In this document: one piece after another, positions 47,964 to 63,865 of the stretch
Numbering within the stretch: position 1 is the first letter of the stretch
Layout of the letters: the number at the start of each line of letters is the position of its first letter
Assembly: GCF_026651875.1 (NCBI RefSeq)
Contig: NZ_CP104067.1
Coordinates: 2,480,001 to 2,544,000, forward strand
Direction of reading: 5' to 3'
Length of the DNA stretch: 64,000 nucleotides
DNA from: Alicyclobacillus fastidiosus
GTDB lineage: Bacteria > Bacillota > Bacilli > Alicyclobacillales > Alicyclobacillaceae
Translations under genes and position numbers: made by a program
Notes under the pieces: generated by a model
The model's database searches: none
Seen by the model: the letters and a program-made list of their open reading frames with translations, nothing else
What the model was told of the DNA's origin: nothing

Positions 47964-48547
47964 ACACGCCCTCCCGTCTGCTTTTACCCAAGTTCACCGC
48001 ACCGGTTTCTCGACGATGAATTCGTTCTACAAAACAGCCCACACTCTGTTTTTCCTATTTTACAAAAATATCTCCCCTTATTACCATAATTAATTATGTG
48101 TGTTAGAAAACTTGAGATTTTGTTTTAAATCTTCAATCGCGCTGTCAAGGTAAAATGTGCGTTTGACTGTAGTTGATATAGTGTTCGGCCTAAATGTTCG
48201 TCCGTTTTTTAACAAATCAATAAAGACGAACTTGAAGGGGAACAACTTCCGATATTCGCCGAGATTGGTGGTCGTGTCCATCATAAGCTGATGGAACCTT
48301 TGGCGTCCTTTTCGGTAATTTTGTACTGACGGTGGCGAGAATCAGCTTAACCTTTAATGAGAACGATATATCCTTCACGCGGAAGCTTATCGAACAACGG
48401 ATAGAGTTTTCCGGGTCTGCACGGTCCAATCATGTTGTTGATAATTTTGGGAATACGGTAATCTTGTGACATTGACCACATGAGAAACTTTCCCTTTTGC
48501 TTAAATAGAGTAGGAATCAAATAGACTCTTTACATTCAGAAAATATC
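47964..48547. other. Spacer between SDR and MFS genes
   Basis: No secure gene. On the minus strand two short frames have some coding character: 48090-48284 (RKLFPFKFVFIDLL, YLDSAIEDLKQNL) and 48347-48472 (MSQDYRIPKIINNMIGP, EGYIVLIKG). Neither has a good ribosome site, and both may be gene remnants. Confidence 0.35.
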
Positions 48548-48568
48548 CCCTACATGTTGACAAGCTAA
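48548..48568 (+). promoter_or_regulatory. Putative shared operator (copy 1, MFS gene)
   Basis: Matches CCCnACATGTnnACAAGnTA, shared with 51136-51156 and 59753-59773. The centre TGTnnACA has the GT..AC symmetry of GntR-family operators. It lies 100 bases before the MFS start. A role as PhnF binding site is inferred. Confidence 0.55.
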
Positions 48569-48668
48569 ACTGCGTACTGACGAATGACATCACTTGACAC
48601 TCCCGCTGGTCAACAGAGTGCTAACTTTTGTGCATGTCATTCTAAAGGAATATAGGAGGAATCGGCTG

Positions 48669-50081
48669 ATGGCAACAATAGCACAGAATGTGCTGACCCA
48701 ACTCGACGATAGTCAAGTTCGTCGGCACCATGTCCGCTTGTTTTCACTAGCGGCGGTAGGGATTTTTGTAGACGGCTATGATCTCAATGTAATTAGTGCG
48801 GCTTTAATCAACCTCGTTCCAAGCCTGCATCCATCGAGCTTGGAAACAAGTTGGTTGAGTACATCTGCCTTAATTGGCACTGCGCTTGGTGCAGCCTTTC
48901 TGGGGCGTCTGACGGACGTGATCGGCCGCAAAAAAATGTTTGTCATTGATTTGATCTTCTTTGTCCTATTTGCCCTTGCGTCGGGATTCGCTCCGAACAT
49001 GATGTGGGTTATTATCTTCAGGTTCTTGCTCGGTATCGGCATTGGCGCAGATTATCCGATTGCGGCGAGTTATGTTTCCGAAATTATCCCTCGTCGCCGG
49101 CGCGGTGCGTTTTTGGCAGCGACAGTCGGAATGCTTAGTGTGGGATCAATTGTTGCTAACCTTGTGTCCATTTTTATCCTATCAGTAGATCACGGTCCCT
49201 CTGCATGGCGATTTATTTTGGCCTCCGGTGCAGTGCCAGCCTTGATTGCCATCATTATGAGAAGTGCCATGCCTGAGTCACCTCGTTGGCTTCTGGTAAA
49301 AAATCGCGAGCAAAGTGCAAGAAGTTCACTGCAACAAATCGGATTGGGTGACGTAGCTACCTTACCGGCACAGAATTTGAATCGAAAGTATCCATATTGG
49401 AAGCTGTTTTCACCTCAATTCGTTCGCATCACTATCCTCGTGACAATGTCCTGGTTGTTGTTTGACATTCTTGCTTACGGCGTTGGTATTTTCCAACCGA
49501 TATTATTGGAGGGTCTTGGATTCCATTCGGGTATCCCCGCACTGTTAGGTAACCTTGCTATCAACATGATTGGCTTTGCTGGCATGCTCTTAGCCATCGC
49601 AACTATTGAACGGGTGGGCCGCAAATGGCAGCAAATCATTGGGATGTTAGGAATGGGGCTTGGTTTGCTTCTGGTTGGAATCATGTCTGCACATGGAACA
49701 AAAGGGTTGCCTGTTGGGGCGTTACTCGCAGTTTTTGGGCTGTATAGTCTCAGTAATAACTGGGGACCGAGCGCAACCACGTATACATCTCCGGCTGAAC
49801 TTTATCCAACAGCTTTGCGGGCAGGTGGTCATGGCCTCGCAGCCATGTCAGGGAAAGTGGGAGCTGCCATCGGAACTTTCTTCTTACCTTTGGTGAAACA
49901 AGCGGTAGGTGTTTCGAACCTTATGTATCTACTCGCAGGAGTGGCGGTTCTTGGTGCAATTGTCTCTATTGTCTTTGGTGTCGAGACGAAAGGCGGACAA
50001 TCATTAGAAACGATTGAAGACAAAATCGTTGGCATCAGGGGAGAGTCGGTTAACCGTCAGCAAACCAACTTGCAACTCTAG
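48669..50081 (+). CDS. MFS transporter (sugar/aromatic-acid porter type)
   Basis: Twelve-helix major facilitator of 470 aa. The ATG at 48669 follows TAGGAGG at nine bases. The MFS signature between helices 2 and 3 reads GRLTDVIGRKKMF, and RRGAFLAATVGML and PESPRWLL match the sugar porter and aromatic acid:H+ symporter branches. The C-terminal half repeats the pattern (ERVGRKWQQ). It shares a 21-bp upstream motif with both phn operons, so it may import a phosphonate or export a product of phosphonate breakdown; this link is inferred from the motif only. Followed by a terminator at 50291. Confidence 0.9.
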   Translation: MATIAQNVLTQLDDSQVRRHHVRLFSLAAVGIFVDGYDLNVISAALINLVPSLHPSSLETSWLSTSALIGTALGAAFLGRLTDVIGRKKMFVIDLIFFVLFALASGFAPNMMWVIIFRFLLGIGIGADYPIAASYVSEIIPRRRRGAFLAATVGMLSVGSIVANLVSIFILSVDHGPSAWRFILASGAVPALIAIIMRSAMPESPRWLLVKNREQSARSSLQQIGLGDVATLPAQNLNRKYPYWKLFSPQFVRITILVTMSWLLFDILAYGVGIFQPILLEGLGFHSGIPALLGNLAINMIGFAGMLLAIATIERVGRKWQQIIGMLGMGLGLLLVGIMSAHGTKGLPVGALLAVFGLYSLSNNWGPSATTYTSPAELYPTALRAGGHGLAAMSGKVGAAIGTFFLPLVKQAVGVSNLMYLLAGVAVLGAIVSIVFGVETKGGQSLETIEDKIVGIRGESVNRQQTNLQL

Positions 50082-50290
50082 ACAAGGTATGTCTCGTCGT
50101 TTCATATTCCAATTCAGGACCTATGGGATGATGAACTTTCATGCTGAACAGGGATATTGAATCAGAAGATGTACGCTAACAATTAATTGAATATAGTTCG
50201 ACCGAATTGACATCTTAACGAAACACGTCACACGGGTTGCAATACTCCGCCTATTACATTCTACAGAGTATTAGCGGGCGCGGAGGTACG

Positions 50291-50318
50291 GGAGCAAGGA
50301 ACCATCCTTGCTCCTTTT
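50291..50318 (+). terminator. Rho-independent terminator downstream of the MFS gene
   Basis: Perfect 10-bp stem GGAGCAAGGA (50291-50300) with TCCTTGCTCC (50305-50314), ACCA loop, then TTTT. It lies 210 bases after the MFS stop; the intervening bases hold no gene. Confidence 0.85.
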
Positions 50319-50384
50319 ACGTTTAACGTGCCCGGAGGTCGCACAAAAAACAAAAGTGGAGTTTTCGACTTTACTCGGTCACAT

Positions 50385-50909
50385 TTACTTCATAAAATAA
50401 TCCCGTACTTCCTTCCAGTTATTTACCCTAGTGTATCCTGTTTCGTGGATATTGTGAGGAGCAGTAAATAAGAGTCCTTGCCCACAAAAACGCTTGAAAT
50501 GTCTCACATTGTCATCAATAAGATAATCCGCACGAATGATGCTTTTGTCACCACAAAAAACAAAGTTCATATCTGAAAGAAACGGGAAATGTTGTTTTAA
50601 CCACTCGTACTTCGCTGTAAATGAGGTTGGTACCTCCATAGCGGCGGTAGTTATAAAAACTTCGAAGTGTTCACTTAGTTCTCTAATAACGTCTTGACTG
50701 CCCTCTATAACTTTCAAATCACGGAAGAATGTTGGTTCTACTAAGTAATTGTTAATTTCATTGTTCAAGTGAGGGCGTAGCTCTCTTAATTTTTTACCGT
50801 GCAGATCGATAAGAGTAATGTTATCGTTGAAATCTCGATTATATAGTTGCAAGTGTTTGTCAACGATATCTGCAATTACTTCGTCCATATCTATGGCTAC
50901 TCTTTTCAT
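50385..50909 (-). CDS. 5'(3')-deoxyribonucleotidase (NT5C family, HAD superfamily)
   Basis: HAD-type phosphatase of 174 aa. The nucleophile motif is VAIDMDEVIAD with Asp7 and Asp9, motif II is the Thr in VFITTAAME, and the distal acidic motif is ADYLIDDNVRHF. The layout matches bacterial 5'(3')-deoxyribonucleotidases that dephosphorylate deoxynucleoside monophosphates. The start at 50909 has GAAGGAG at good spacing. Stand-alone gene, convergent with the MFS unit. Confidence 0.9.
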   Translation of the reverse strand: MKRVAIDMDEVIADIVDKHLQLYNRDFNDNITLIDLHGKKLRELRPHLNNEINNYLVEPTFFRDLKVIEGSQDVIRELSEHFEVFITTAAMEVPTSFTAKYEWLKQHFPFLSDMNFVFCGDKSIIRADYLIDDNVRHFKRFCGQGLLFTAPHNIHETGYTRVNNWKEVRDYFMK

Positions 50910-51075
50910 TTGCTCTCTCCTTCGGTTCCCTAATTTGGTACCCAATAAAGATGGTGTCCCCCCTTAATTCTTTAATATTTCCCTCAATTAAGGTATGTAT
51001 CAAGTTGCTCCAAAATCTTTCTTCAAAATGACACTACATGCGACTTTCCTTTATCGACATGCGAACCTGTTCCTT

Positions 51076-51090
51076 TGTAAACGGTTTACA
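51076..51090. promoter_or_regulatory. Perfect palindrome upstream of cluster 1
   Basis: TGTAAAC-G-GTTTACA, 7-bp arms around a single G. It resembles LacI/CcpA-type operators but has one base too many at the centre. It lies 45 bases upstream of the shared motif. Confidence 0.45.
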
Positions 51091-51135
51091 CAAACTTAAT
51101 TTACATGACCTGATTCAAAACAAAACATCAATACT

Positions 51136-51156
51136 CCCGACATGTTAACAAGTTAC
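51136..51156 (+). promoter_or_regulatory. Putative shared operator (copy 2, phnG1 operon)
   Basis: Second match to CCCnACATGTnnACAAGnTA; here the centre is TGTTAACA, a perfect 8-bp palindrome. It lies 244 bases upstream of phnG1. Confidence 0.55.
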
Positions 51157-51399
51157 TTTGTCCGTGGATAGCTCGGATTAGTTCAGTTCCAGAAAAAAGT
51201 GAGGCGATTAGCAACGTGGGAGCTGGCGGCATTGGTAGTGATTTGCAAAACAACACGCAGGTATTCGATTTCCACCATTCTACCACTATCGTGATCTTCT
51301 CTATCGTCCATTGGTCGAAATGTTCTCAAAGTTTCACGGTCTCTCGTAAGAGAAACGTTCGATAAACACTCGAGTTAATTTCATTGGCAGGTGGTAGGT

Positions 51400-51843
51400 A
51401 TGAAACGAAAACAAATGACCCGAATTTTGGTGGAAGGGGACAGAACTCTGTTGGAGCGGCTCGCGGCGCAGATCGAGGCCGCGCATGAGGTTCATGTGAA
51501 TCGTAAACCGGAAAACAGTCTCGTGATGATGAAGACGTTCGATCCTGTGGCCAGCCAACCGTTTTACCTCGGCGAAGTCATGGTGACGCAGTGCACCGTT
51601 ACGGTGAATGGGCATCGCGGTATCGGTGTCCTAATGGGTGACGAGCCCGACCGTGCTTACTACTTGGCCGTCGTGGATGCGGCTGTCAATGCAAGTATCC
51701 CAGAGAGCTTTTTGTGGGAGCCCGTGCTTCTTGAAGAGGAAAAGCGTGTAAACCGTCGTCAGTATGAAGAGTACGCGCGGGTCGAGAAGTCAAAAGTTCA
51801 GTTTGAGACTGGAGGAGCACTATGCAAAAAAGGGATAAGGTAA
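51400..51843 (+). CDS. phnG: PhnG, C-P lyase core subunit (cluster 1)
   Basis: 147-aa subunit of the carbon-phosphorus lyase core complex (PhnG2H2I2J2 in Escherichia coli). Together with PhnH and PhnI it supports transfer of the phosphonate to C1 of ribose triphosphate from ATP. The family blocks are present: LVMMKTFDPVASQPFYLGEVMVTQCTV and GIGVLMGDEPDRAYYLAVVDAAVNA. The ATG at 51400 follows AGGTGG. It overlaps phnH by 22 bases. The sequence is clearly divergent from the second PhnG at 60804. Confidence 0.92.
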   Translation: MKRKQMTRILVEGDRTLLERLAAQIEAAHEVHVNRKPENSLVMMKTFDPVASQPFYLGEVMVTQCTVTVNGHRGIGVLMGDEPDRAYYLAVVDAAVNASIPESFLWEPVLLEEEKRVNRRQYEEYARVEKSKVQFETGGALCKKGIR

Positions 51844-52487
51844 TGGACTATGATGCCGTACACGATACTCAACACGTCTATCGTCAACTGGTTGATGCCA
51901 TAGCTCGTCCGGGAAGAATTTGCTCCATTGAAACAGTATGTGGACGCCTTTCCGAGTTGGGAGAGAGGAACGCAGGGCTAGCGGCGTGTGCGCTCGCTCT
52001 CTTAGATCAAGAAGTCTGCTTCTCCGTGGTGGCAAATGAATCGTCGGCGAGCATATTGCGGGAGTTCCTTAGGTGGGAAACGTTCAGTCTCTCAGCAAAA
52101 ACAAGCGAAGCAGATTATGTGTTTTTCGAATGCGGGCAGATATCCGCAGTGAATGTACGAGAACTGATGGGCGCTCTCAAACGAGGAACGCTTTTGGATC
52201 CGCAGAAGAGTGCAACCGCGTTCCTGACAGTTGATGTTTTGGCTGAGACACTGGAGAAGGTGGATGAAGCGGCGAGTCTCTGTATGAGACTGCGAGGTCC
52301 AGGAATTGACGGTACGCGACACATCGCTGTAATTGGTATGGACTCAGAATGGATGTTTGCACGCGAAATGGTGAACGCGGAGTATCCGCTTGGTATCGAT
52401 ATGTTCCTTGTTTCAGAGGCAGGGCAAATCATCGGGTTGCCACGAACGACTATCGTCGAAATTGAATCCGTAGAGAAGGTGGTGTAA
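51822..52487 (+). CDS. phnH: PhnH, C-P lyase core subunit (cluster 1)
   Basis: 221-aa core subunit, fold related to PLP-dependent transferases without the cofactor. The characteristic N-terminal block is DTQHVYRQLVDAIARPGRI, then LDQEVCFSVV and the C-terminal LRGPGIDG, AREMVNAEYPLGIDMFLV. The ATG follows TGGAGGAG at good spacing and lies inside the end of phnG. phnI begins three bases after the stop codon. Confidence 0.93.
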   Translation: MQKRDKVMDYDAVHDTQHVYRQLVDAIARPGRICSIETVCGRLSELGERNAGLAACALALLDQEVCFSVVANESSASILREFLRWETFSLSAKTSEADYVFFECGQISAVNVRELMGALKRGTLLDPQKSATAFLTVDVLAETLEKVDEAASLCMRLRGPGIDGTRHIAVIGMDSEWMFAREMVNAEYPLGIDMFLVSEAGQIIGLPRTTIVEIESVEKVV

Positions 52488-52490
52488 CCC

Positions 52491-53642
52491 GTGGGTTATA
52501 CAACGGTCACAGGTGGTCAGGAGGCCATTGAAAAGTCGCACCAATTGGTCGATCTCTATCGCCTTGCCGATGCGAAATCTCCGATGCAAGTGGCTGAGAT
52601 CAAATCGCAATTGCAAGGCCTCGTCGACAAGGTCATCAGCGAGTCCGGCTTTTATGCGCCGTCTTATGCGGCACTCGCCATCAAACAAGGACAGGGAGAT
52701 CCGGCCGAAGCCGTTTTTCTCCTCTGTGCGTATCGCTCTACATTGCCGCGCAACTACTACTCTAGCACCGTTTACACCTCAGACATGCGAGTGATTCGGC
52801 GAATTTCATCTTCCTTTAAAGACATTCCGGGCGGTCAGATGCTCGGGCCGACCTACGACTACACGCATCGTTTGCTTCGGTTCGACCTCATGGATGAGAA
52901 CGACGAACAACTGAAATTCACCCTTGACCAAGTTCGTTCGGAAATTACTCAGCAGGGGGAAACACCAACATTCCGCAAGGTTGCGGACCTTCTCCGTGAA
53001 CAAGGGCTGATTGCACCGATTCAGTCACCGGAGGTGGAACGGGAACCGTTTGACGTAACACGACAAAAAGTACAGTTTCCGACGACAAGGCAGGCAAGGC
53101 TGCAACTGCTGGCCCGCGGGGAAACTGGCGCCATGACTGCATTCGCGTATAGCAGCATGCGTGGATTTGGTACAGTTCACCCGACAATCGGCGAATTGCG
53201 AGTCGGCTACCTGGCTGTCTCCATCCCCTATCCGTACGCAGTGGATGACGAGGATTCAATATATATCGGGGAAGTTTTAGTAACAGAGGTGGAGTCCATC
53301 AATTCTTTTAAAATGAGTGACCAAAAGGGAGAAGTGCAGTTTTCGCTCGGATATGGACTGTGTTTCGGTCAAAACGAAGTCAAGGCGATTTCGATGTCCA
53401 TTCTCGAGCGTTCGCTCGAAACTCCAGGTACCGGTCCTACGCATGATGAGGAGTTTATCCTGCTTCACATCAATAGTCCCGAATCAAACGGGTTCGTTTC
53501 GCACTTGAAGTTGCCGCATTACACAACATTCCAGGCGTCGTTGGATAGGATTCACAGCGTCAAAGACAGGTTCGAAAAGACGCTGGAGGACGAGGAAGGA
53601 GACGTAGACGGGATTGAACAAACCGAGGTTCCAATCGGATAA
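52491..53642 (+). CDS. phnI: PhnI, C-P lyase nucleosidase subunit (cluster 1)
   Basis: 383-aa PhnI. In the established pathway it catalyses displacement of adenine from MgATP by the phosphonate, with PhnG, PhnH and PhnL. Conserved stretches are GYTTVTGGQEAIEKSHQL, FYAPSYAALAIKQGQGDPAEAVFLL, RISSSFKDIPGGQMLGPTYDYTHRLL and GYGLCFGQNEVKAISMSILER. The GTG start at 52491 follows GGTGGTG. Its end overlaps phnJ by 29 bases. Slightly longer than the E. coli protein (354 aa). Confidence 0.94.
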   Translation: MGYTTVTGGQEAIEKSHQLVDLYRLADAKSPMQVAEIKSQLQGLVDKVISESGFYAPSYAALAIKQGQGDPAEAVFLLCAYRSTLPRNYYSSTVYTSDMRVIRRISSSFKDIPGGQMLGPTYDYTHRLLRFDLMDENDEQLKFTLDQVRSEITQQGETPTFRKVADLLREQGLIAPIQSPEVEREPFDVTRQKVQFPTTRQARLQLLARGETGAMTAFAYSSMRGFGTVHPTIGELRVGYLAVSIPYPYAVDDEDSIYIGEVLVTEVESINSFKMSDQKGEVQFSLGYGLCFGQNEVKAISMSILERSLETPGTGPTHDEEFILLHINSPESNGFVSHLKLPHYTTFQASLDRIHSVKDRFEKTLEDEEGDVDGIEQTEVPIG

Positions 53643-54504
53643 ATATCATTTCGCTTTTCTAGATGAGGCGTCAAAGCGTGAAATTCGCCGAGCTACGCTG
53701 AAGGCCATTTCCATTCCAGGCTATCAAGTTCCGTTTGCCTCACGAGAGATGCCTATTGGTCGGGGATGGGGAACAGGCGGCTTACAATTAACACTATCTC
53801 TGATTGGCCGGGAAGACACTGTGAAGGTCATTGACCAAGGAAATGATGAGAGTGTCAACGCTGTAAGCATTCGCAAGCTGATTGAAGAGACGAGCGGAAT
53901 CGCAACGACAACTGACACAACCAAAGCAACGCTGATTCAGACACGTCACAGGATTCCGGAAGAAGAACTTCGCGAAGACCAAATTCTCGTGTTCCAAGTA
54001 CCCCAGCCGGAACCACTGCGCAGAGTCGACGCGAAAGAAATGGGAACAAAGCGCAAACATTCGGAGATGGATTACAGCGGGATTTGGTTGACGCTATACG
54101 AGGATATCGTCCGATGGGGGGAGGTCACCATCGGTGCGGATTATCCATGTTTGGTTCACCATCGCTACTTATTCAATCCGAGTCCCATCCCGCGCTGGGA
54201 CACGCCGCGGCTCCATCAGAGCGGGACGTTGTACTTGTTCGGTGCTGGTCGTGAAAAGAAGATTTATGCGATTCCACCCTTTACGGATGTAACGCCTATG
54301 CAGTTTGACGATTACCCATTTCGGGTCGAGTCTTTCCCGGGTGCGTCATGCAAGTTTTGCGGAAGGGACGACGTATTCCTGAACGAGATATACGACAGTG
54401 TTACTGGCGATCGCCACTTTCAGTGTTCAGATATCTCCTTTTGTCTGAAGAATCGTTCCCCAAGGAGGACGTGTTGTGACTCGGACGGGCCATCAGCGCA
54501 CTAG
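53614..54504 (+). CDS. phnJ: PhnJ, radical-SAM C-P lyase (cluster 1)
   Basis: 296-aa catalytic subunit that cleaves the carbon-phosphorus bond of 5-phosphoribosyl-1-phosphonate to the hydrocarbon and the 1,2-cyclic phosphate. All four cysteines known for PhnJ are present with the expected spacing: Cys246-x2-Cys249-x21-Cys271-x5-Cys277. Other conserved blocks are IPGYQVPFASREMPIGRGWG, TRHRIPEE, LYEDIVRWGE and YLFGAGREK. The start is TTG 53614 inside phnI, comparable to the second copy. The last residues (NRSPRRTCCDSDGPSAH) are unusual and coincide with a possible deletion scar, but the active site is intact. Confidence 0.94.
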   Translation: MNKPRFQSDKYHFAFLDEASKREIRRATLKAISIPGYQVPFASREMPIGRGWGTGGLQLTLSLIGREDTVKVIDQGNDESVNAVSIRKLIEETSGIATTTDTTKATLIQTRHRIPEEELREDQILVFQVPQPEPLRRVDAKEMGTKRKHSEMDYSGIWLTLYEDIVRWGEVTIGADYPCLVHHRYLFNPSPIPRWDTPRLHQSGTLYLFGAGREKKIYAIPPFTDVTPMQFDDYPFRVESFPGASCKFCGRDDVFLNEIYDSVTGDRHFQCSDISFCLKNRSPRRTCCDSDGPSAH

Positions 54505-54547
54505 ATCGAGCTTCTCTTGGAGACACGGCAGGTGGGCGAACGCGTGA
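54476..54547 (+). other. Orphan ribosome site and 23-codon frame, possible scar of lost phnK/phnL
   Basis: AAGGAGG at 54462-54468 stands seven bases before GTG 54476, which opens only 23 codons (MTRTGHQRTRSSFSWRHGRW). In canonical operons phnK starts here. No ABC-type motif is found before the next gene at 54597, so phnK and phnL of this cluster seem to have been deleted. Confidence 0.45.
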
Positions 54548-54596
54548 CCTTTGTCGCCTTGCATTCATTTTCCATTAGAAAGGAAGAGAGAGACCA

Positions 54597-55238
54597 ATGT
54601 ATGAAGTAGCGAACCACAGTGTGGAAGACAACACAAAATTAGGACCGCAGCCACGCATACACAGGACGGCTCGAGTAGTGGAAAGCGAAATCGGGAGTTG
54701 GGCAGACATTGGGGCCGGAAGCAACATTTATCTATCGACGGTGGGCGACTACAGCTACACGGCTGGCGATGCGCAAATCGTATATACGGATGTTGGAAAA
54801 TTCTGTTCCGTCGCCTCGCATGTACGGCTTAACCCAGGGAATCATCCGATGTGGCGTGTTACGCAACACCATTTTACGTATCGACGACAAGCCTACGAAT
54901 TCGACACTCGCGACGATGAGGAATTTTTTGAGTGGAGAAAGGAACATCGCGTCATTATCAGACACGATGTTTGGATTGGGCATAACGCAACGGTGATGCC
55001 GGGTGTCAAGGTGGGGACGGGTGCGGTCATTGGCGCAGGCGCGGTGGTGACGAAAGACGTGGATCCCTACACTATCGTCGTGGGCGTACCTGCGAAACCG
55101 CTTCGTCCGCGCTTTCCGAAAGAAGTGGCCGACAGATTGCTTACTATCGCCTGGTGGGATTGGCCCAGAGATGTGTTGGAAGAGCGATTCAATGACTTTC
55201 TGAATCTCGAACTTTTTTTGGAGAAGTACTCGGTATGA
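54597..55238 (+). CDS. Hexapeptide-repeat transferase of phosphonate operons
   Basis: 213-aa left-handed beta-helix acyltransferase. Hexapeptide repeats run through IGSWADIGAGSNIYLSTVGDYSY and VWIGHNATVMPGVKVGTGAVIGAGAVVTKDV, with the loop His in NPGNHPMWRVTQHHFTY. It matches the hexapeptide-family phosphonate metabolism protein often found in phn operons, a candidate acetyltransferase for aminoalkylphosphonates, analogous in role to PhnO. The ATG follows AAGGAAGAGAG. It overlaps the next gene by four bases, so cluster 1 continues as one operon. Confidence 0.88.
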   Translation: MYEVANHSVEDNTKLGPQPRIHRTARVVESEIGSWADIGAGSNIYLSTVGDYSYTAGDAQIVYTDVGKFCSVASHVRLNPGNHPMWRVTQHHFTYRRQAYEFDTRDDEEFFEWRKEHRVIIRHDVWIGHNATVMPGVKVGTGAVIGAGAVVTKDVDPYTIVVGVPAKPLRPRFPKEVADRLLTIAWWDWPRDVLEERFNDFLNLELFLEKYSV

Positions 55239-56065
55239 GTGAAAGGTCACCGCTCCGTATCTTAACCATCAATACCTGGAAATGCGACGGGAACTATGAT
55301 CTGCGGATGCAGGCTCTCGCGAAACAAATTTCGTCCCTTGACCCGGATGTGATTACCCTTCAGGAGTCATTTCGCACGGTCGACGGGACGGTTGATACAG
55401 CGAAATCGTTGGCGAACGCTCTCGGTATGCACTGTCAGTTCGCCCAGGCGAGGCGAAAAACGCGCATGGTGAAAGCTCGGGTGGTCGAGAGCGACAGTGG
55501 ACTTGCAATGCTTTCGCGGGTACCTATTCAATCGACACATCGTCTTGTGTTGCCGACCGATTCTCCAAGCGAAGAGCGGGTGGCGCTCCTTGGCATCCTT
55601 GACTGGCACGGTGTAGTCGTGAACATTGCGAATGTACATTTCACGCATTTACCGGAGCGGATGCTAGTAAAGCGTGCGCAGTTAAGTGCCGTTCTTGATG
55701 CATGCTCCACTGACGCCGGAATCGATGTTCACGCAAATTTAATTTGCGGTGATTTCAATACACCGTTACATGAGTTACAAGAGTTACTTGCCGGTCGAAA
55801 CGAATGGACAATCCGGGATAGTTACGTGCTGGGCGGGGGCGAGTCGGAGCGTATCACCATACGCGGCATTGGCGCGGATTGGCCCGACGCGGTGTGCATT
55901 GATTATATTCTGCATGTCCAGAAGTCTACTGAGTCATCGACCGTCCGGTTCGAAGATTCTTCAATTGTATTGAACCAGCCTAACGGGAAAACGGGCGTAT
56001 TTCCAAGTGATCACTATGGTGTCATGACGACGATGCACTTCGTAAATGGAGGCGAAGCATTCTGA
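55235..56065 (+). CDS. Endonuclease/exonuclease/phosphatase (EEP) family protein in the phn operon
   Basis: 276-aa metal-dependent phosphoesterase of the DNase I-like fold. Visible catalytic elements: Asn in LTINTWKCDG, the metal Glu in VITLQESF, the His in NVHFTHLP, the GDFNTP motif and the terminal SDHYG with the Asp-His pair. It overlaps the transferase by four bases and touches phnM by one base, so it is translated as part of the C-P lyase operon. Its gene order suggests a role on phosphoribosyl intermediates, for example in place of PhnP (cyclic phosphate diesterase), which is not seen. That role is inferred only. Confidence 0.85.
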   Translation: MSERSPLRILTINTWKCDGNYDLRMQALAKQISSLDPDVITLQESFRTVDGTVDTAKSLANALGMHCQFAQARRKTRMVKARVVESDSGLAMLSRVPIQSTHRLVLPTDSPSEERVALLGILDWHGVVVNIANVHFTHLPERMLVKRAQLSAVLDACSTDAGIDVHANLICGDFNTPLHELQELLAGRNEWTIRDSYVLGGGESERITIRGIGADWPDAVCIDYILHVQKSTESSTVRFEDSSIVLNQPNGKTGVFPSDHYGVMTTMHFVNGGEAF

Positions 56066-56706
56066 TGGAGCATGAACATATCATCACAGGAAATATTGTG
56101 ACTCCTACAGGCATTATTGAGCACGGTGCAGTTATAGTTCGAGATGGAAAAATCGTCGACATCGACGAGTTGTCACGTTCTTTGAAAGCGCGTGTAGTAG
56201 AAGACGAGGCTGTCGAATGGGTGTTACCTGGTATGATTGACACGCACAGTGATGCCATCGAAACGGAAATGCAGCCACGGCCGGGTAGTCTCTTTCCCAT
56301 TGAGGTTTCATTTCACGAACTTGAGCGAAAACTGGCGGCACAGGGAATCACGACCATCTACCACGCATTAAGTATGCTCGCGGACCAGTCTAGCGACTGG
56401 GCTCGACAGAACGACACGGTGAAACGGCTGATTTTCGATATCCGTAAACTGTCTCGACAACATTCGCTCATCCGCCATCGTCTTCACCTGCGGTTCGAAA
56501 TCACGAATTTGACAGCCGTTCCTTATGTCGAAGAGTTGCTGAAATCAGAGAGTATCGAACAAGTATCGTTTATGGATCATTCACCAGGGCAAGGACAGTT
56601 TCGCAGCCTTGAGCATCAGAAAAAGTTGATTATGTCAAAGCATGCTTTGTCTGAAGAGCAGGCGGATCAGGTGTTGGCGAACCGTATGGGGCAACCAAAG
56701 GTAAAT

Positions 56707-58329
56707 AGGGCCTGCTGAACGATTTAATACACAGGCCCCATGATGCAAAAATCAACCTCAAAGAGTTCTCCAAACAAGAGCCAGAAAAGAAGCCGCAGCC
56801 TCTTTTCGAGGTTCATGACCAACAGTTGCAGGGCGATCACAGTCTCGCTCGTCTGACGAAGCCGTGCTCGAATCAAGCCAAGCCCATAGTTTCGCTTGGC
56901 TTCGCCAAATTTCCCTTCCACCGCGTTACGCTCACCCACGTCCTCGCGCTCTTGTTGCTTTTCTCCTGGCTCCACATGCTTTGGCGGACGACCAAGTTTC
57001 GGCCCGCTCAACCGGATTCCGTGTTCCTTGCAGTACCTGAGGTTCTCTCGCGTTCGATAGATTTTGTCCGCCAGAACGGCTTCCGGATAGCAACCGAAGC
57101 GCTCAACATACCGCTCTACGGATTCAATCAGGGTCGTTCCCTCATTGAAGCTATCCCAGCTTGTCTTCTCCATCATGGCGTATCCGTCCACAACACTGAT
57201 GGCGACCTTTGAACCGAACTCCACATTCGCTTTTGCTTTTCCACGTACAATGGGTCGAACGTCTGGCTGTGCGATGCTGACGATTCTGTCGTCAACCCGG
57301 TGGCTTCGCGTGCGATACATCTCTCGTTGTTGGCGATGCAACTCGCCAATAACCAAGAGATCGCGGTATTGTTTCCGCGAGAGGGTAGTAAGCGGTGTAT
57401 GTTCTGCCAGTTGTTCAATGAATCTCAAGTCCCTTGCCACATAGCGCAACTGTCGCCCAATAGCCTTACGAATCTCTGACCGGCTTGGCTTTCGGTTCTT
57501 TGCCGTTCGCAAGTAGTCACGACGCGCTTGGCGCCGCCGGTCTCTAGGTTTCTTCATGTAGCCGACATGTGACGCATGGAGTGTGTCGATGATGTCCTCC
57601 AACTTCTCACGCGCTGTGTTCAACAGTGTCAGGTCTGTCGGATACGCAATATCTGCAGGCGCGCAGGTTGCATCCAGAATAAGCTTCCCTTGATGCGCAC
57701 GTGGTTCTTGAGATTCTGCTTGTGGACGACCGTTTGCATCTTCCCCGGAGGAGGTTGGAGGATTGTCTTTGGGACCGTTGTCGTCTCCATCCTCTTCTTC
57801 CTCACGTGCTGCCTGCACAATCCACTCATTCACTTGGTTAATAGCATCAGGGCCAAGCCGCTTACGAAAGTATGTCAGCAGAGAAGGATCAAAAGGCGGT
57901 TCTTCCTGATATGCCTCAAGACCGAGGAAGTACTGCAGGTACGGGTTTTCCGTGATGTGTTGAACCAAGTGGCGGTCTGAAAAGCCTTCACGTTCCTGAA
58001 TGATGAGCGCACCAAGCGCCATTCTAACGGACATTGCGCGCCCGCCTCGAAGGTCCTTGCTAAAGTGTTTGCTGTATTCTTGTTCCACGCGTCGCCACGG
58101 GATGAGATAGGAGAGCTCAACCCAACGATTATCTTCTCTGAGTCGACCACCGAACGGTAGAAAGAAGTCGCCGGGGAGTATCTGTTGATCTTGATGATTC
58201 GCGTACATTGTCCGTCCTCCAAGTGCACGGTTTTTCGCACGTTCCGCTCAAAATCCATACACTTGTATTCGACAAAACACACCCGAAACCCTTGCTACTA
58301 CTGGGATTTCAATTCATTCAGCAGGCCCT
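56707..58329 (-). mobile_element. IS5/IS1182-type insertion sequence in phnM
   Basis: Element of 1,623 bp with perfect 13-bp inverted repeats AGGGCCTGCTGAA (56707-56719) and the complement (58317-58329). Target duplication AAAT at 56703-56706 and 58330-58333. The intact ends, intact transposase and clean duplication point to a recent event. Confidence 0.9.
56724..58208 (-). CDS. IS5/IS1182-type transposase (DUF772 plus DDE domain)
   Basis: 494-aa transposase. The N-terminal DUF772 region (RMALGALIIQEREGFSDRHLVQHITENPYLQYFLGL) is followed by an acidic linker (EEEDGDDNGPKDN) and the DDE core: LILDATCAPADIAYP, the second Asp in AVLADKIYRTRENL, and Glu in RNAVEGKFGEAKRNYGL. Undamaged. A decayed relative is found at 4725-4927. 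Confidence 0.92.
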   Translation of the reverse strand: MYANHQDQQILPGDFFLPFGGRLREDNRWVELSYLIPWRRVEQEYSKHFSKDLRGGRAMSVRMALGALIIQEREGFSDRHLVQHITENPYLQYFLGLEAYQEEPPFDPSLLTYFRKRLGPDAINQVNEWIVQAAREEEEDGDDNGPKDNPPTSSGEDANGRPQAESQEPRAHQGKLILDATCAPADIAYPTDLTLLNTAREKLEDIIDTLHASHVGYMKKPRDRRRQARRDYLRTAKNRKPSRSEIRKAIGRQLRYVARDLRFIEQLAEHTPLTTLSRKQYRDLLVIGELHRQQREMYRTRSHRVDDRIVSIAQPDVRPIVRGKAKANVEFGSKVAISVVDGYAMMEKTSWDSFNEGTTLIESVERYVERFGCYPEAVLADKIYRTRENLRYCKEHGIRLSGPKLGRPPKHVEPGEKQQEREDVGERNAVEGKFGEAKRNYGLGLIRARLRQTSETVIALQLLVMNLEKRLRLLFWLLFGELFEVDFCIMGPVY

Positions 58330-59058
58330 AAATATCGAAGAATTGGCACGCCTTGCCGCTGTGGCAAAGGACCACGGAATTCCGCTCGCCTCGCATGACG
58401 ATGACTCTATTGGAAAACTGGACCTGATGCGCAATTGGAACGTGGCGATCAGCGAGTTTCCGGTCGAACTCGGCGTCGCCATCGAGGCCAAACAGAGAGG
58501 ATTGGCCGTTGTAATGGGCGCACCGAACGTCGTGCTTGGCAAGTCGCACAGTAACAACGTGTCGGCCTTCGAAGCGATTTCGTACGGCGCAGTCGATATT
58601 TTATGTTCGGACTACTATCCTCCATCGATGCTACAGGCAGTCTTTTTTCTCTACCGAAGCGGCATATCTATGGTCGATGCCGTAAATCTTGTCTCGTTGA
58701 ATCCGGCAAAAGCCTTGCGTCTCGACGATTCGCTCGGCTCTATCGAGATTGGCAAAACAGCCGATTTGTTAAAAATCCGTGAGTATCGACAAATTCCAGC
58801 GATTCAGGAGGTCTACGTCGAAGGGAACTTAGTATGCCAGATGTCTTATCAGAAGCTCGCTATGGAGACGATTGGAAAGTGAGTAGTGGAGGTGACATTT
58901 AAGACCCGACACAGCCGAATCTAAGGTAATGTGATTCAGAATCTATAACAACAGACTGGGTTTCCGATCGTTGGTGTGGAATTGAGTTTCAACAGTACTA
59001 AAGGCAGTGTTGGACAATCGTGTGCCTCATCCAATTTTTCAATGAATGGGGAGTTTTG

Positions 59059-59682
59059 ATGAAAATCGGTTTCGCGGTGATTCCGAACGAGAGTCTGATT
59101 GATACCCTAATCTCTTTTCAAGTTGAAATGAACAGTACAATTGCTTTGGAGCCCAAGTTGGGGCACACGTACAATTTACCTCATATTACGCTGATTCAGG
59201 GAGATTTTAAGGACAGCCTTAAATATATTGATGTTTTGTACGACCTTCAGGATTACCTAGTCGGCTCAATGATAGAAACACTGGTTGCATCTGTCCAAGA
59301 AATCTTCTATCAGCCTGTGGGGTGGTATTTCGTACGTATCCAAAAAGAACCATGGCTAATCCACTTGCACAATCACCTATTCGACATAGTCAAAGACGAC
59401 ATGTTGCCAGGAGTCGTCAATCCAGATAAAGAGCGATGGTTCACGCCACTAGAGACACAGAACACTCGGAAATATGGGTACCGTTACATTGGAGAAGCTT
59501 ATTTACCTCACATTACACTCGGAAGAAATCCCGATCTCACGAAGTCAAAACTGATTTTTGAGATGAATCGAAGATGGGAAAGAGCAAATATTGCTTCACC
59601 ACAGTTGATGAGCCGATTAACCGTCTATGAAATGGGCGAAAACGGTGCCCATGCACAAACATTAGCAAGTCTCTTCATTTGA
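59059..59682 (+). CDS. 2H phosphoesterase-family (LigT-like) protein
   Basis: 207-aa protein with the two diagnostic H-x-T motifs of the 2H phosphoesterase superfamily: His42-x-Thr44 in NLPHITLIQG and His151-x-Thr153 in YLPHITLGRN. The ATG at 59059 follows GGGGAG at six bases. 2H enzymes act on 2',3'- or 1'',2''-cyclic phosphates, and a 2H-type protein (DUF1045) is known from phosphonate operons. Placed between two C-P lyase clusters, it is a candidate to open the ribosyl 1,2-cyclic phosphate made by PhnJ, although it may be an unrelated neighbour. Confidence 0.8.
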   Translation: MKIGFAVIPNESLIDTLISFQVEMNSTIALEPKLGHTYNLPHITLIQGDFKDSLKYIDVLYDLQDYLVGSMIETLVASVQEIFYQPVGWYFVRIQKEPWLIHLHNHLFDIVKDDMLPGVVNPDKERWFTPLETQNTRKYGYRYIGEAYLPHITLGRNPDLTKSKLIFEMNRRWERANIASPQLMSRLTVYEMGENGAHAQTLASLFI

Positions 59683-59752
59683 ACGTTATATATTTATTCC
59701 TTCGTAGAAGATTTCATAGAGTTTTACGAAACGTTTATCTTTCCTTCGCATA

Positions 59753-59773
59753 CCCAACATGTCGACAAGTTAC
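59753..59773 (+). promoter_or_regulatory. Putative shared operator (copy 3, phnF operon)
   Basis: Third match to CCCnACATGTnnACAAGnTA, 295 bases upstream of phnF. Sixteen of 21 positions are identical in all three copies. Confidence 0.55.
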
Positions 59774-59987
59774 CTTACTTACATAAGCAGAAAGTTAGTG
59801 AATGCCAAAGCATTGCTGCGGCTCAGGTAACGGCGATCGAAGACGACGTCAACTCACTGATTTAGGCTGGACAATGAGTATGGTGGAGGACGGATATAGT
59901 CGACGGAAACGGTGAGGCGCACCCAAGGTAGCCTAAACAAGCGAGTCGTCACATTGATTGTCTTCATTACGCCTCACTAATATTCGT

Positions 59988-60027
59988 CTAGAAAAGGGAG
60001 GAGTAGTAAACCGTCTCCCTTTTCTAG
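59988..60027 (+). promoter_or_regulatory. Hairpin in the phnF leader
   Basis: Perfect 13-bp stem CTAGAAAAGGGAG (59988-60000) with CTCCCTTTTCTAG (60015-60027) and a 14-base loop, 40 bases before the phnF start. It may be a terminator, an attenuator-like structure or an operator. A near-palindrome TCTAGATATCTAAA follows before the ribosome site. Confidence 0.5.
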
Positions 60028-60067
60028 GTGAGATGTTGTCTAGATATCTAAATAGGAGGTTCCGTAA

Positions 60068-60838
60068 GTGATTGAACGGAAAAGTGGGATGCCGTATTAC
60101 CTCCAAGTGGCGGATTACCTGATGGAGAAGATTGAAAGTCAGGAGTATCCAGTGGGTGAGAAAATTCCTTCTGAGTGGGAATTATCGAGGCTGTTTGACG
60201 TCAATCGACACACGGTTCGTCAGGCGGTAGCCAAGCTTGTAAGCATTGGGTTGGTCACCACCGTGAAAGGTCTTGGCTCCTACGTGAAATCCACACCTGT
60301 GATTCCGTATTATCTCTCACAGCAAACCCGCTTTACGGAGAATGTGGATAGTCTCGGGAAATCTCCGAAGAGCGAACTACTTGATTGGAGCAAGGGGTTA
60401 CCTACGGAACATGAACGGCAGCAACTGGCACTCGATCGCCAAGAGAAGGTTTACCGAATGGATATTCTTCGTTCCATCGATGGGACTCCGTATTCTATGT
60501 CGACGACAGTGCTTCCCGAAAAATTTGTTCCATCTCTGGACACACATTTAGATGACTTTAATTCTCTCTATCGCATTTTACAACAACAATATGGATTCCG
60601 GCCGATTCGTCTACGTTCGATCATCAAAGCGAAATCTTGCGTACCTATGGATGCTAGATACCTGCCCGAAGACGTTCCAATCATTTATGTTGAGAGTTTG
60701 GCGATTCACCCGATAACGAAAATGCCCGTAGAAATCGCCATAGGGCGTACACGCGGGGATATGAATGAGATGGTTGTTCAATTTGGAAATGGAGGAGAAC
60801 CGAGTGGATACGAGGCAACGAACAAAAATCCTGAGTGA
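60068..60838 (+). CDS. phnF: PhnF, GntR/HutC-family regulator of phosphonate genes
   Basis: 256-aa regulator. An N-terminal GntR winged helix (about residues 1-75: YYLQVADYLMEKIESQEYPVGEKIPSEWELSRLFDVNRHTVRQAVAKLVS) is followed by a UTRA effector domain (residues 95-240, ending IHPITKMPVEIAIGRTRGDMNEMVVQFG). The GTG at 60068 follows TAGGAGG. It overlaps phnG2 by 35 bases and is the first gene of cluster 2. PhnF proteins repress phn genes and respond to phosphate-related signals in other bacteria. The shared 21-bp motif is a candidate binding site. Confidence 0.92.
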   Translation: MIERKSGMPYYLQVADYLMEKIESQEYPVGEKIPSEWELSRLFDVNRHTVRQAVAKLVSIGLVTTVKGLGSYVKSTPVIPYYLSQQTRFTENVDSLGKSPKSELLDWSKGLPTEHERQQLALDRQEKVYRMDILRSIDGTPYSMSTTVLPEKFVPSLDTHLDDFNSLYRILQQQYGFRPIRLRSIIKAKSCVPMDARYLPEDVPIIYVESLAIHPITKMPVEIAIGRTRGDMNEMVVQFGNGGEPSGYEATNKNPE

Positions 60839-61250
60839 AATTTCACTTCGTGAACTTCAACCTTGGATGGTGCAAGTTAAGCGGATGGCAGACATTCAAG
60901 TGATTAAACCACCGCAGATGGGTTTAGTGATGATGCGAGCGAAGGAGAGCGTTGAGCAGGAAGTTTTCAACGCTGGTGAAGTTTTGGTGTCAGAGTGCGC
61001 TGTGATGGTGGACGGGCAACTCGGCTATGGTGTCATCACAGAGAAGGATTTAGAACGCGTACATGCGCTAGCGGTATTAGATGCCATCTTTCATGCGAAC
61101 AACTCCAAGTGGGAGGCGCTACAGAAGGAATTGGATGCGTGGCTCCTTGAGCAAGAAGGTCAGCAAGATGAGTCTTGGCGGCGCGATTTTGCGAAGATTC
61201 AACGTAGTTTGGTGAACTTCGATTTATTGGAAGAGGTGGATAACGACTAA
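60804..61250 (+). CDS. phnG: PhnG, C-P lyase core subunit (cluster 2)
   Basis: 148-aa PhnG. The GTG at 60804 is selected because GGAGGAG lies six bases upstream, inside the end of phnF. Family blocks: GLVMMRAKESVEQEVFNAGEVLVSECAVMV and GYGVITEKDLERVHALAVLDAIFHA. Its stop overlaps the phnH start by one base. It differs strongly from PhnG of cluster 1, indicating two anciently separated sets rather than a recent duplication. Confidence 0.92.
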   Translation: MDTRQRTKILSEISLRELQPWMVQVKRMADIQVIKPPQMGLVMMRAKESVEQEVFNAGEVLVSECAVMVDGQLGYGVITEKDLERVHALAVLDAIFHANNSKWEALQKELDAWLLEQEGQQDESWRRDFAKIQRSLVNFDLLEEVDND

Positions 61251-61864
61251 TGACGACACATTCATTACCTACGATATCGGAGCAGGAGAGCGCTACTCAG
61301 GAGTTGTTTCGCACCCTGTTGGACTGCATGTCGAGACCAGGGAAGATAGCGAAACTAGCTCCGTCAAATGGCGTCCTTGAAATCGACCTCACCCCCTATG
61401 TGGTGAGCGTAGCCTTGACCCTGCTCGATCAAGAAGTGACGTTCCAGATTGTTCATGATAAGGGGTCTAGTTCCTCGACGCTGCAAGTGTATACGATGGC
61501 AAGCTTGGCCCCACTAAACCAGTGCGATTTTGTGTTTATGCACGGGACTGATAGCGTGGATGTCTGCGGTTTGAAGCGAGGTGTCCTTGCCTATCCGGAT
61601 GAGAGTGCAACGGTGGTATGTTCTGTGAACCAATTGTCCGACTCGAAACTATATCAATCAGGAACAACCAAACTTACTCTCTCGGGACCAGGAATCAAGG
61701 ACCAGTGTCAGCTCTTTCTTGACGGCATCGACGAGCAGCTACTGTCACTGTGGCAGAGAGCCAACCAGGAATATCCACTTGGAATCGATTGGATTTTTGT
61801 TGACGAGATGGGGAACGTCTGTTGTATTCCACGCAGCACGCAGTTTGCATGGGAGGTGATGTGA
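61250..61864 (+). CDS. phnH: PhnH, C-P lyase core subunit (cluster 2)
   Basis: 204-aa PhnH. Conserved parts: ATQELFRTLLDCMSRPGKI, LDQEVTFQIV, the C-terminal LSGPGIKDQ and RANQEYPLGIDWIFVDEMGNVCCIPRST. Somewhat shorter than the cluster 1 protein. Starts on the last base of the phnG stop codon. phnI begins one base after the stop. Confidence 0.92.
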   Translation: MTTHSLPTISEQESATQELFRTLLDCMSRPGKIAKLAPSNGVLEIDLTPYVVSVALTLLDQEVTFQIVHDKGSSSSTLQVYTMASLAPLNQCDFVFMHGTDSVDVCGLKRGVLAYPDESATVVCSVNQLSDSKLYQSGTTKLTLSGPGIKDQCQLFLDGIDEQLLSLWQRANQEYPLGIDWIFVDEMGNVCCIPRSTQFAWEVM

Positions 61865-61865
61865 G

Positions 61866-62993
61866 GTGGCTTATGTTGCTGTACGAGGTGGACAACGTGC
61901 GATTGATGAAGCGGAGCAACTCACCAAGTACTATCGAGTAAAAAATGGGAGTTCACCCATTGAGGTCAAACAAATTCGAGATCAGATGCGGTTAGCTGTC
62001 GACCGTGTGATGAGCGAGGGCTCATTATATGCCCCGGATCTCGCTGCGATTGCCCTAAAACAGGCTGAGGGAGACACACTGGAAGCATCATTCTTATTGC
62101 GAGCGTTTCGTTCGACGCTCCCTAGAAACTTGTACTCGCTGCCGGTCGATACGACCCAGATTCGCATGATTCGGCGGGTTTCAGCGACGTTTAAAGACAT
62201 CCCTGGCGGACAGTTTCTCGGCCCAACGCGCGACTATACAAAGCGTCTAATCGAGTTTTCCTTGAGCGAGGAAAGCGAGGACGACGTGAAGGACTTTTTG
62301 GACTTGTACGTGGGCAGAGACAACGTACCAGATACTTTGCCGGAATTCCCGAGAGTTGTGGATTTACTACGAGCGGAGGGACTGTTGGAGAATCGCGGTT
62401 TGAACAAATCCGAACGGGTAGTGACGGACCCTGCTGCTGCCCCCGGACCTTCGGACGTCGGCGACATCACTCGCCAACCGATTCGCTTCCCAGCTTCCCG
62501 TGCCGTGCGTATGCAATCGTTAAGCCGGGGTGAGCAAGGGGCACTTCTCGCTTTGGCTTACTCCAGTGCACGTGGATATGGGTTTATTCACCCAACGTTG
62601 GGTGAACTTCGCGTCGGCTATGTGCCGGTAGAAGTGCCTCATCCGATTTATGAAAAGGAGACCATCACGGTTGGCTGGATTCTCGTGACAGAAGCTGAGA
62701 TCATCGCGCGAATGGAAGAACGGACGGAGGAGACTCGTGCTCAGTTTTCTTTGGGATATGGATTCTGCTTCGGACACAACGATGTGAAGGCGATGTCCAT
62801 GGCCACCTTGGATCGCGCGATGGTCTCAGAGGGCGCCGTGGCTCCAGCGGAAGATGAGGAATTTGTTCTCTATCACATTGATGGAATTGAATCGTCAGGA
62901 TTCGTGTCACATTGGAAGTTACCTCATTATGTCGATTTTCAAGCTGAAATGAACCGTGTGCAATCAATTCAAGAGAGGAGGGGAACGGAGTGA
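61866..62993 (+). CDS. phnI: PhnI, C-P lyase nucleosidase subunit (cluster 2)
   Basis: 375-aa PhnI with the blocks AYVAVRGGQRAIDEAEQL, LYAPDLAAIALKQAEGDTLEASFLLRAF, RVSATFKDIPGGQFLGPTRDYTKRLI and SLGYGFCFGHNDVKAMSMATLDRA. Starts at GTG 61866. Its stop overlaps the phnJ start by four bases. The middle (about residues 145-200) is the least conserved with respect to the cluster 1 protein. Confidence 0.94.
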   Translation: MAYVAVRGGQRAIDEAEQLTKYYRVKNGSSPIEVKQIRDQMRLAVDRVMSEGSLYAPDLAAIALKQAEGDTLEASFLLRAFRSTLPRNLYSLPVDTTQIRMIRRVSATFKDIPGGQFLGPTRDYTKRLIEFSLSEESEDDVKDFLDLYVGRDNVPDTLPEFPRVVDLLRAEGLLENRGLNKSERVVTDPAAAPGPSDVGDITRQPIRFPASRAVRMQSLSRGEQGALLALAYSSARGYGFIHPTLGELRVGYVPVEVPHPIYEKETITVGWILVTEAEIIARMEERTEETRAQFSLGYGFCFGHNDVKAMSMATLDRAMVSEGAVAPAEDEEFVLYHIDGIESSGFVSHWKLPHYVDFQAEMNRVQSIQERRGTE

Positions 62994-63865
62994 ACAGTAA
63001 CTATAACTTCGCTTTTCTGGATGAAGGTACGAAACGAGAAATCAGACGCAAGTTACTGAAGGCTGTTGCAATACCAGGCTACCAGGTACCGTTCGGATCT
63101 AGGGAATTGCCCATAGCGAGAGGATGGGGAACTGGTGGACTACAGATCACGTTTTCGGTTGTAGGCCAATCGGACGTCGTCAAGGTGATTGACCAAGGAG
63201 CGGATGACAGCGTCAACGCGTGTAATTTGCGCGACCTGATTGAGGTGACCACCGGCTGTTCTACAACCTCTGACACACTCGACGCTTCGATTGTACAAAC
63301 GCGCCATCGGATCCCGGAGGAACGTATGACGTCGGATCAAATTCTCGTGTTTCAAGTGCCGTATCCGGAGTCGCTACGCTTTGTGGAACCGAGCGAACGG
63401 GAGACGAGACGGATGCATGCGGAGGCGGATTACAGCAAACTTTGGGTATTTCTTTACGAAGACATTGTGCGCTGGGGTGAAATAACGCTGTCCCATCGGT
63501 ATCCGGTGATGGTAAACCATCGCTATATTATGGACCCGTCCCCAATTCCACGGTTTGACGTACCGAAGCTGCATCAAGCAGACACGCTCTTCTTGTTCGG
63601 CGCCGGTCGTGAAAAACGAATTTACGCTATACCCCCATACACGGATGTCCAACCGTTGCAGTTTCAGGATTATCCGTTTCATGTCGAGGACTTTCACGGC
63701 GCTAGCTGTGCAGAGTGTGGAAGCACGGACTCTTATCTCACCGAAGTTTATAATCGTACGAATGGGATTAAGCAGTATGTTTGTTCGGATACGAGCTATT
63801 GCATGAAACGGCAGGAGCAGCAAGCAGGCTCGGACGTCATTATCGGGAGGCACTGGCATGAATGA
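62990..63865 (+). CDS. phnJ: PhnJ, radical-SAM C-P lyase (cluster 2)
   Basis: 291-aa PhnJ. The iron-sulfur and catalytic cysteines are Cys240-x2-Cys243-x21-Cys265-x5-Cys271, identical in spacing to cluster 1 and to E. coli PhnJ. Conserved blocks: IPGYQVPFGSRELPIARGWG, TRHRIPEER, FLYEDIVRWGE and FLFGAGREKRIYAIPPYTDV. GTG start at 62990. By eye about two thirds of residues match the cluster 1 PhnJ. The C-terminus ends normally and overlaps the phnK start, unlike in cluster 1. Confidence 0.95.
   Translation: MNSNYNFAFLDEGTKREIRRKLLKAVAIPGYQVPFGSRELPIARGWGTGGLQITFSVVGQSDVVKVIDQGADDSVNACNLRDLIEVTTGCSTTSDTLDASIVQTRHRIPEERMTSDQILVFQVPYPESLRFVEPSERETRRMHAEADYSKLWVFLYEDIVRWGEITLSHRYPVMVNHRYIMDPSPIPRFDVPKLHQADTLFLFGAGREKRIYAIPPYTDVQPLQFQDYPFHVEDFHGASCAECGSTDSYLTEVYNRTNGIKQYVCSDTSYCMKRQEQQAGSDVIIGRHWHE

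Follow-up and report, generated by a model that had tools for sequence, protein, structure and literature searches.

We analysed a 64,000-nucleotide stretch of the Alicyclobacillus fastidiosus genome (contig NZ_CP104067.1, positions 2,480,001 to 2,544,000; hereafter, the window), in which the same short motif precedes a major facilitator superfamily (MFS) transporter gene and each of two operons for carbon-phosphorus (C-P) lyase, the second of them headed by the regulator gene phnF. Comparison of sequences leads us to propose, with a probability that we put at about 0.78, that the motif is the operator of the HutC-type GntR repressor PhnF joined to the opening TA of the -10 element, and that the three promoters would be under joint control by phosphate (Pho) and phosphonate signals.

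The pattern CCCNACATGTNNACAAGNTA is found exactly at positions 48548, 51136 and 59753, all on the plus strand, as a preliminary description of this DNA had reported. The genes downstream are likewise those named there, encoding an MFS protein (Pfam Sugar_tr and MFS_1), PhnG and a protein with GntR and UTRA domains. The 16 invariant positions given there can be counted, but in a pattern of 20 letters; the stated length of 21 is reached only by including the next, variable base. With up to three mismatches allowed, the same three sites are the sole matches in the window, against a mean of 0.49 in shuffled sequences, and none of 100 shuffles reached three. The genome-wide scan suggested in the preliminary description shows that the motif is not widespread: the 6,035,649 bases contain three exact matches, each of them within the phn region, and 22 matches with three mismatches (backward-read pattern, 56); matches with one or two mismatches are absent. 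The core alone likewise has three matches in this genome, and local alignment of the three upstream regions finds the core in common and otherwise only short matches of chance length.

The core is the dyad ACATGTYRACAAG, whose trailing TA begins a -10 element (TAnnnT). It reads RCWTGTYRACAWGY, symmetric in six of seven base pairs, with GT and AC two bases apart. Operators of the GntR superfamily are palindromes of the form NyGTNxACNy (excerpted text of PMC4494728), a rule that the core follows with ACATGTYRACAAGY, which pairs at six of seven positions; two other genomes (G467 and G483) have the perfect palindrome ACTTGTCAACAAGT. The GntR-operator symmetry (TGTnnACA) seen earlier holds for the dyad; the final TA belongs to the -10 element and the spacing is not the one usual for HutC operators. 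The predicted operators are as follows.

48552..48565, plus strand: predicted dyad operator of the MFS promoter, ACATGTTGACAAGC; the same site is present at the MFS ortholog of the sister genome G004
51140..51153, plus strand: predicted dyad operator of the phnG1 promoter, ACATGTTAACAAGT
59757..59770, plus strand: predicted dyad operator of the phnF promoter, ACATGTCGACAAGT

Among 61 genomes (the window's own, G000, and 60 relatives), phnG was found only in G000 and in G004, a relative of the same genus in which the two phn operons lie 2.8 Mb apart (at 1.38 and 4.16 Mb). In G004, 14 matches to the core CATGTNNACAAG were found, compared with 10 for the backward control, and three of the 14 are upstream of the MFS ortholog, phnG1 and phnF; only those three fit the general pattern ACWTGKYRACAAGNTANNNT with fewer than two mismatches. 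The general pattern has exactly three perfect matches in each of the two genomes and none with one mismatch, so that the regulon visible by it consists of these three promoters; with two mismatches there are 26 (G000) and 22 (G004) matches, versus 53 and 42 for the backward control. Of the 21-bp motif first described, the core is kept at all three G004 sites. Its CCC is kept only at the MFS site and is replaced by CGC or TTG before phnG1 and phnF, and is therefore not part of the element. The idea of a single phosphonate regulon with the MFS gene as a member has good support from the retention of three sites in a genome where the operons are unlinked, and it is also backed by related sites before many phn operons, by co-occurrence with phnF and by variation of the operator with the PhnF recognition helix, all set out below.

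A core scan of 80 phn loci fetched by PhnJ (from at least 583 confirmed relatives) revealed a similar element, ACTTGGCRACAAGNTA, a short distance ahead of phnG. After nine loci with no phnG match or with less than 80 bp upstream were left out, 34 of 71 were found to carry the element with at most two mismatches within 300 bp upstream of phnG. The backward control gave 0 of 71, and 40 permuted patterns on the same loci averaged 0.03 and never exceeded 1. The carriers are mostly Bacillota by title, and include an Anaerolineaceae and a Spirochaetales metagenome-assembled genome; in two Paenibacillus loci (L086 and L099) the element lies further upstream. In G467 and G483 it stands before the whole operon, ahead of phnD, in the order phnD, an ATP-binding cassette (ABC) ATPase, two permease-like open reading frames, an acyltransferase, phnM, phnF and phnGHIJKL. 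The element is older than the genus of G000 and G004. Two further Paenibacillus loci (L105 and L064) have a second operator form, ACTTGGCATCAAG, besides the site before phnG.

Because the ACTTGG consensus of ACTTGGCRACAAGNTA was learned from the scanned loci themselves, cleaner tests are provided by the columns outside the pattern and by other genomes. Within an even sample of 398 genomes from the phylum, the exact ACTTGG pattern has eight sites in seven genomes, versus four for the backward pattern, and five of the eight are near phn genes. Such a site is near phn genes in 4 of 21 genomes with phnG, and the pattern occurs in 3 of 377 genomes without it. As for the columns outside the pattern, all 34 aligned sites have T at position +19, from which we take the TA at +14/+15 to open a -10 hexamer TAnnnT. 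All six sites of the two genomes obey this register (TAAACT, TACTTT and TACCTT in G000; TACACT, TACTTT and TACTCT in G004). Upstream of the dyad, the aligned sites show TTnAC-like repeats at -24 (T at -23 in 34 of 34) and -13, and a less distinct one at -35. Their spacing is that of an 11-bp direct repeat, the arrangement characteristic of PhoP boxes; the dyad is near-invariant and the repeats are loose. The corresponding features of the window are:

48529..48534, plus strand: single TTTACA, a Pho-box-like hexamer, 23 bp before the MFS dyad
48566..48571, plus strand: predicted -10 element of the MFS promoter, TAAACT, placed by the TAnnnT register of the 34 sites
51085-51090 and 51100-51105, plus strand: two TTTACA hexamers upstream of the phnG1 dyad
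51154..51159, plus strand: predicted -10 element of the phnG1 promoter, TACTTT
59723..59750, plus strand: three loose Pho-box-like repeats at 11-bp spacing, TTTACG / TTTATC / TTCGCA, before the phnF dyad
59771..59776, plus strand: predicted -10 element of the phnF promoter, TACCTT

As Pho-box-like repeats lie upstream of the dyad, PhnF is probably not the sole regulator of these promoters.

The regulator gene that was expected directly after the third copy is indeed of the GntR/HutC type:

60068..60838, plus strand: PhnF-like GntR/UTRA regulator, proposed repressor of the three promoters

Its product scores 59.9 with PF00392 (cut-off 27) and 74.6 with PF07702 (cut-off 23.8), and it is the one PhnF match of G000 at E<=1e-22 among six candidates scored. 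Across the PhnJ-fetched loci, a PhnF-like GntR gene is present in 31 of 34 with the site and in 13 of 37 without it (Fisher p 1.4e-6, with kinship ignored), or in 29 of 30 versus 12 of 32 where at least 3 kb of upstream sequence is available. The exceptions that have the site and no phnF are L078 and L109, which have little sequence upstream of phnG, and L077. Outside this discovery set, five other genomes encode a PhnF at least 44% identical to that of the window, and all five have an operator form at the phn operon. The match is perfect in G467 and G483, has one mismatch (an ATAAG half) in G482 and G721, and takes the form ACTTATCGATAAG in G556. No site with at most one mismatch was found for 22 more distant PhnF matches with loci.

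The operator also varies with the residues of the PhnF recognition helix. The helix arginine, which we take from the FadR structure to be the residue that contacts the half-site G, is preceded by P, T or S in 32 regulators with a site found, and all 32 have TGG in the left half of the operator; where N precedes it, eight of nine have TGT. Two Sporolactobacillus regulators with N-His in these positions have the operator ACTTATCGATAAGT, which reads TTAT in both halves with A in place of the half-site G. In G556, the phnG-adjacent regulator has N-Pro, and the operator is again of the TTAT form in both halves. Here the operator of each locus is the best match anywhere in the locus to one of ten templates; three rows were omitted (L079_19060, L234_9345 and L235_14418) as proteins other than the phnG-adjacent regulator, and the sites of L204 and L205 were found in wider stretches, outside their 3.7-kb loci. 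An Arg-G contact is expected in the GntR family (excerpted text of PMC4494728). Since regulator and promoter are inherited together, the covariation is support rather than proof.

Several observations weigh against assigning the dyad to PhnF. The spacing is GT-N2-AC, as in the FadR subfamily, and not the GT-N4-AC of the HutC type, although HutC operators are mostly, and not always, palindromes of the latter form (excerpted text of PMC4494728). The PhnF-like protein scores 140.6 bits with TIGR02325, the best family listed, against a cut-off of 156.8. L077 has an exact site and no phnF within 20 kb, and no site was found in the loci of the Bacillota regulators L053, which has N before the helix arginine, and L110 and L116, which have P, T or S there. 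Six PhnF proteins from proteobacteria have a helix that is almost identical (VNRHTxR), and their loci show no such site with up to two mismatches. The helix correlation has its own weak points: L076 combines N-Arg with the TGG form, G482 and G721 keep the arginine though ATAAG has already taken the place of one half-site, the change to TTAT amounts to a single operator form from a small number of genomes, and G556 has a second PhnF-like copy, closer to that of the window (44%), in which the arginine is kept. In the even phylum sample, 4 of 20 phnG loci outside G000 have a site with at most one mismatch; two have three mismatches and 14 have four or more, with none below four in the backward control. 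Finally, the TTTACA boxes of phnG1 are out of 11-bp phase with each other and with the dyad.

One alternative is that another regulator binds the dyad and that PhnF recognizes only a HutC-type sequence, TGTCTAGAT, near its own start codon. Besides the spacing usual for the subfamily, the proteobacterial proteins and L077, this explanation can draw on the HutC-like sequence TGTCTAGATRTCTAA, which is kept directly before phnF in both genomes (window 60037-60052; L051:15427) and might serve PhnF as an additional site or as its actual one. The dyad nevertheless co-occurs with phnF, and its sequence changes along with the PhnF recognition helix. From the dyads to the starts of MFS and phnG1 there is no GTCTAGA, which does occur at the MFS stop codon, and a scan of the window for the HutC-type GTMTAKAC gave no site common to the three promoters. 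On balance we regard a different binding protein as unlikely. That the motif is simply part of a Pho box read by PhoP alone is highly improbable: TTTACA-like 11-bp repeats do continue as far as the motif at phnF, and the genes controlled concern phosphorus, but the dyad is an inverted and not a direct repeat, and it is near-invariant where the repeats are loose. We reject this explanation since the pstS-like loci of both genomes, which have TTTACA repeats, lack the dyad (best matrix scores 4.8 and 6.1, versus about 24.5 for real sites); the pstS-like genes concerned score below the TIGR02136 cut-off.

The TTGACA, TTAACA or TCGACA within the motif could conceivably be the -35 element of an ordinary promoter, and the TTGACA of the MFS copy matches the consensus. 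With TAnnnT directly after the dyad in all 34 sites, this is hardly credible, and it was rejected as by eye there is no conserved -10 element 17 bp downstream and the G004 MFS promoter has one extra base there. Chance or recent duplication of upstream DNA has a negligible likelihood in our estimation. The upstream regions of G000 and G004 are alike over tens of bases, as duplication would allow, but the three within one genome have only the core in common, and the element occurs in distant genera where permuted patterns are found almost never.

The sites, with their specificity, conservation, -10 register and association with phnF, are thus most readily understood in terms of control by PhnF, for which we infer the following scheme. 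A PhnF dimer would occupy the dyad RCWTGTYRACAWGY between the Pho-box-like array and the -10 element; given this position, between presumed activator boxes and the -10 element, a protein bound there would block RNA polymerase. Transcription of the MFS gene, of operon 1 (phnGHIJ with accessory genes) and of operon 2 (phnF-GHIJKLM) would require both phosphate starvation, conveyed through the upstream repeats by an activator of the PhoP type, and a phosphonate-related ligand acting on the UTRA domain of PhnF, which through the third copy would control its own gene. If this is correct, the three-copy motif provides a promoter code, open to testing, for the use of phosphonates across much of the Bacillota, by which sequence would suffice to predict start sites, the operator and the members of the regulon. 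The MFS protein would gain a pathway, with a likely role as phosphonate importer in genomes without a convincing PhnD, and the matched helix and operator variants would form a natural series for the study of DNA reading by GntR proteins at a spacing unusual for the subfamily. The broader generalization, that many Bacillota C-P lyase operons share a Pho box and a PhnF operator of an unusual GT-N2-AC class fused to the -10 element, with the phosphate-starvation and phosphonate signals integrated at a single place, and that the MFS carrier replaced PhnCDE as phosphonate importer in this lineage, is one to which we would give even odds.

Among known systems, the gluconate operator of Bacillus subtilis GntR, ATACTTGTATACAAGTAT, has the same half-site and GT-N2-AC spacing, although this regulator belongs to the FadR subfamily and responds to another ligand. 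The PhnF operator of Mycobacterium smegmatis, TGGTATAGACCA, is of the GT-N4-AC form. The best solved relatives of the window's PhnF by sequence are the HutC repressors DasR and NagR/YvoA (9i0v, 4zs8, 2wv0 and 4u0v), and DasR governs an amino-sugar regulon. NagR also differs in serving an amino-sugar regulon (excerpted text of PMC4333415), and for both proteins the HutC operators with which they are grouped are mostly GT-N4-AC (PMC4494728). M. smegmatis PhnF is likewise a GntR/HutC regulator of phosphorus genes and represses through two sequences in the promoter region, but there it controls phosphate uptake by phnDCE (excerpted text of PMC7866108). The phnC-P genes of Escherichia coli similarly put C-P lyase under a Pho box, and phnF is part of the operon; they differ in forming one operon with PhnCDE, and no such dyad appears in the description excerpted from PMC10574752. 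Repressors of the PhnF type, as well as C-P lyase under Pho control, are thus already known (PMC7866108 and PMC10574752). No description of the operator, or of its combination with a Pho box and the -10 element, was found in the open-access literature searched, including the excerpted text of PMC4494728, PMC7866108, PMC10574752 and PMC4744853, a coverage that leaves out supplements and most subscription papers; a text search of the open-access literature for the operator sequence returned only papers unrelated by title.

The gene at the first promoter encodes the transporter:

48669..50081, plus strand: MFS transporter, candidate phosphonate importer

The best NCBIfam match of its product is the phosphate:H+ symporter family TIGR00887, at 191.8 against a cut-off of 610.3, and no cut-off is reached among the 25 families listed of 44. 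Matches at E<=1e-30 occur in 48 of the 61 genomes; the G004 ortholog is 95% identical and the other listed ones at most 39%, which indicates that, of the 61, only the two phn genomes have this transporter. None of the 80 PhnJ-fetched loci has an MFS match at E<=1e-4. With regard to the alternative importer, PF12974 gave two matches in G000 and three in G004, above the cut-off of 27 and mostly weak and partial (27.6 to 42 bits). Three of the five proteins were checked for identity as PhnD and rejected, two matching NMT1 (73 bits) and SBP_bac_3 (151 bits) better or equally and the third being weak everywhere (32 bits); the true PhnD of G467, for comparison, scores 222 bits. No convincing PhnD was found in G000 or G004, and no search was aimed at phnC or phnE. 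Most simply, the MFS carrier may stand in for PhnCDE, with phosphonate as its candidate substrate.

The remaining genes of the region are arranged as follows.

50385..50945, minus strand: NT5C-type 5'-nucleotidase
51391..54504, plus strand: operon 1 core phnG1, phnH1, phnI1 and phnJ1 (Pfam)
54597..56065, plus strand: operon 1 hexapeptide acyltransferase (TIGR03308) and endonuclease/exonuclease/phosphatase-family protein
56065..58882, plus strand: phnM1, interrupted by a transposase gene (56724-58208, minus strand)
59020..59682, plus strand: last gene of operon 1, conserved in G004 and with no Pfam or NCBIfam match
60765..63865, plus strand: operon 2 phnG2, phnH2, phnI2 and phnJ2, by similarity to phnG, phnH, phnI and phnJ of operon 1

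The phnG, phnH, phnI and phnJ genes of operon 1 score above their Pfam cut-offs, and those of operon 2 were assigned by similarity; the PhnJ proteins of the two cores are 61% identical. Beyond the window, operon 2 continues with phnK-like, phnL-like and two phnM-like genes, the phnM likeness being to operon 1. Operon 1 is without its own phnK or phnL and presumably borrows those of operon 2. The transposase within phnM1 is of the DDE type, and in G004 the corresponding phnM is uninterrupted. Because operon 2 has two further phnM-like genes, the pathway need not be lost despite the split phnM1. The endonuclease/exonuclease/phosphatase-family protein (55235-56065) is kept in operon 1 of both genomes. 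The NT5C-type 5'-nucleotidase is a possible accessory phosphatase of the pathway; its gene adjoins phnF in G004 and a GntR gene in Ureibacillus L088. A strong hairpin (59985-60031; z -3.84) lies in the 5' leader of phnF, within a stretch of about 240 bp that, judged by eye, G004 lacks. Elsewhere in the window, positions 39070-40881 encode a group II intron reverse transcriptase/maturase (RVT_1, GIIM).

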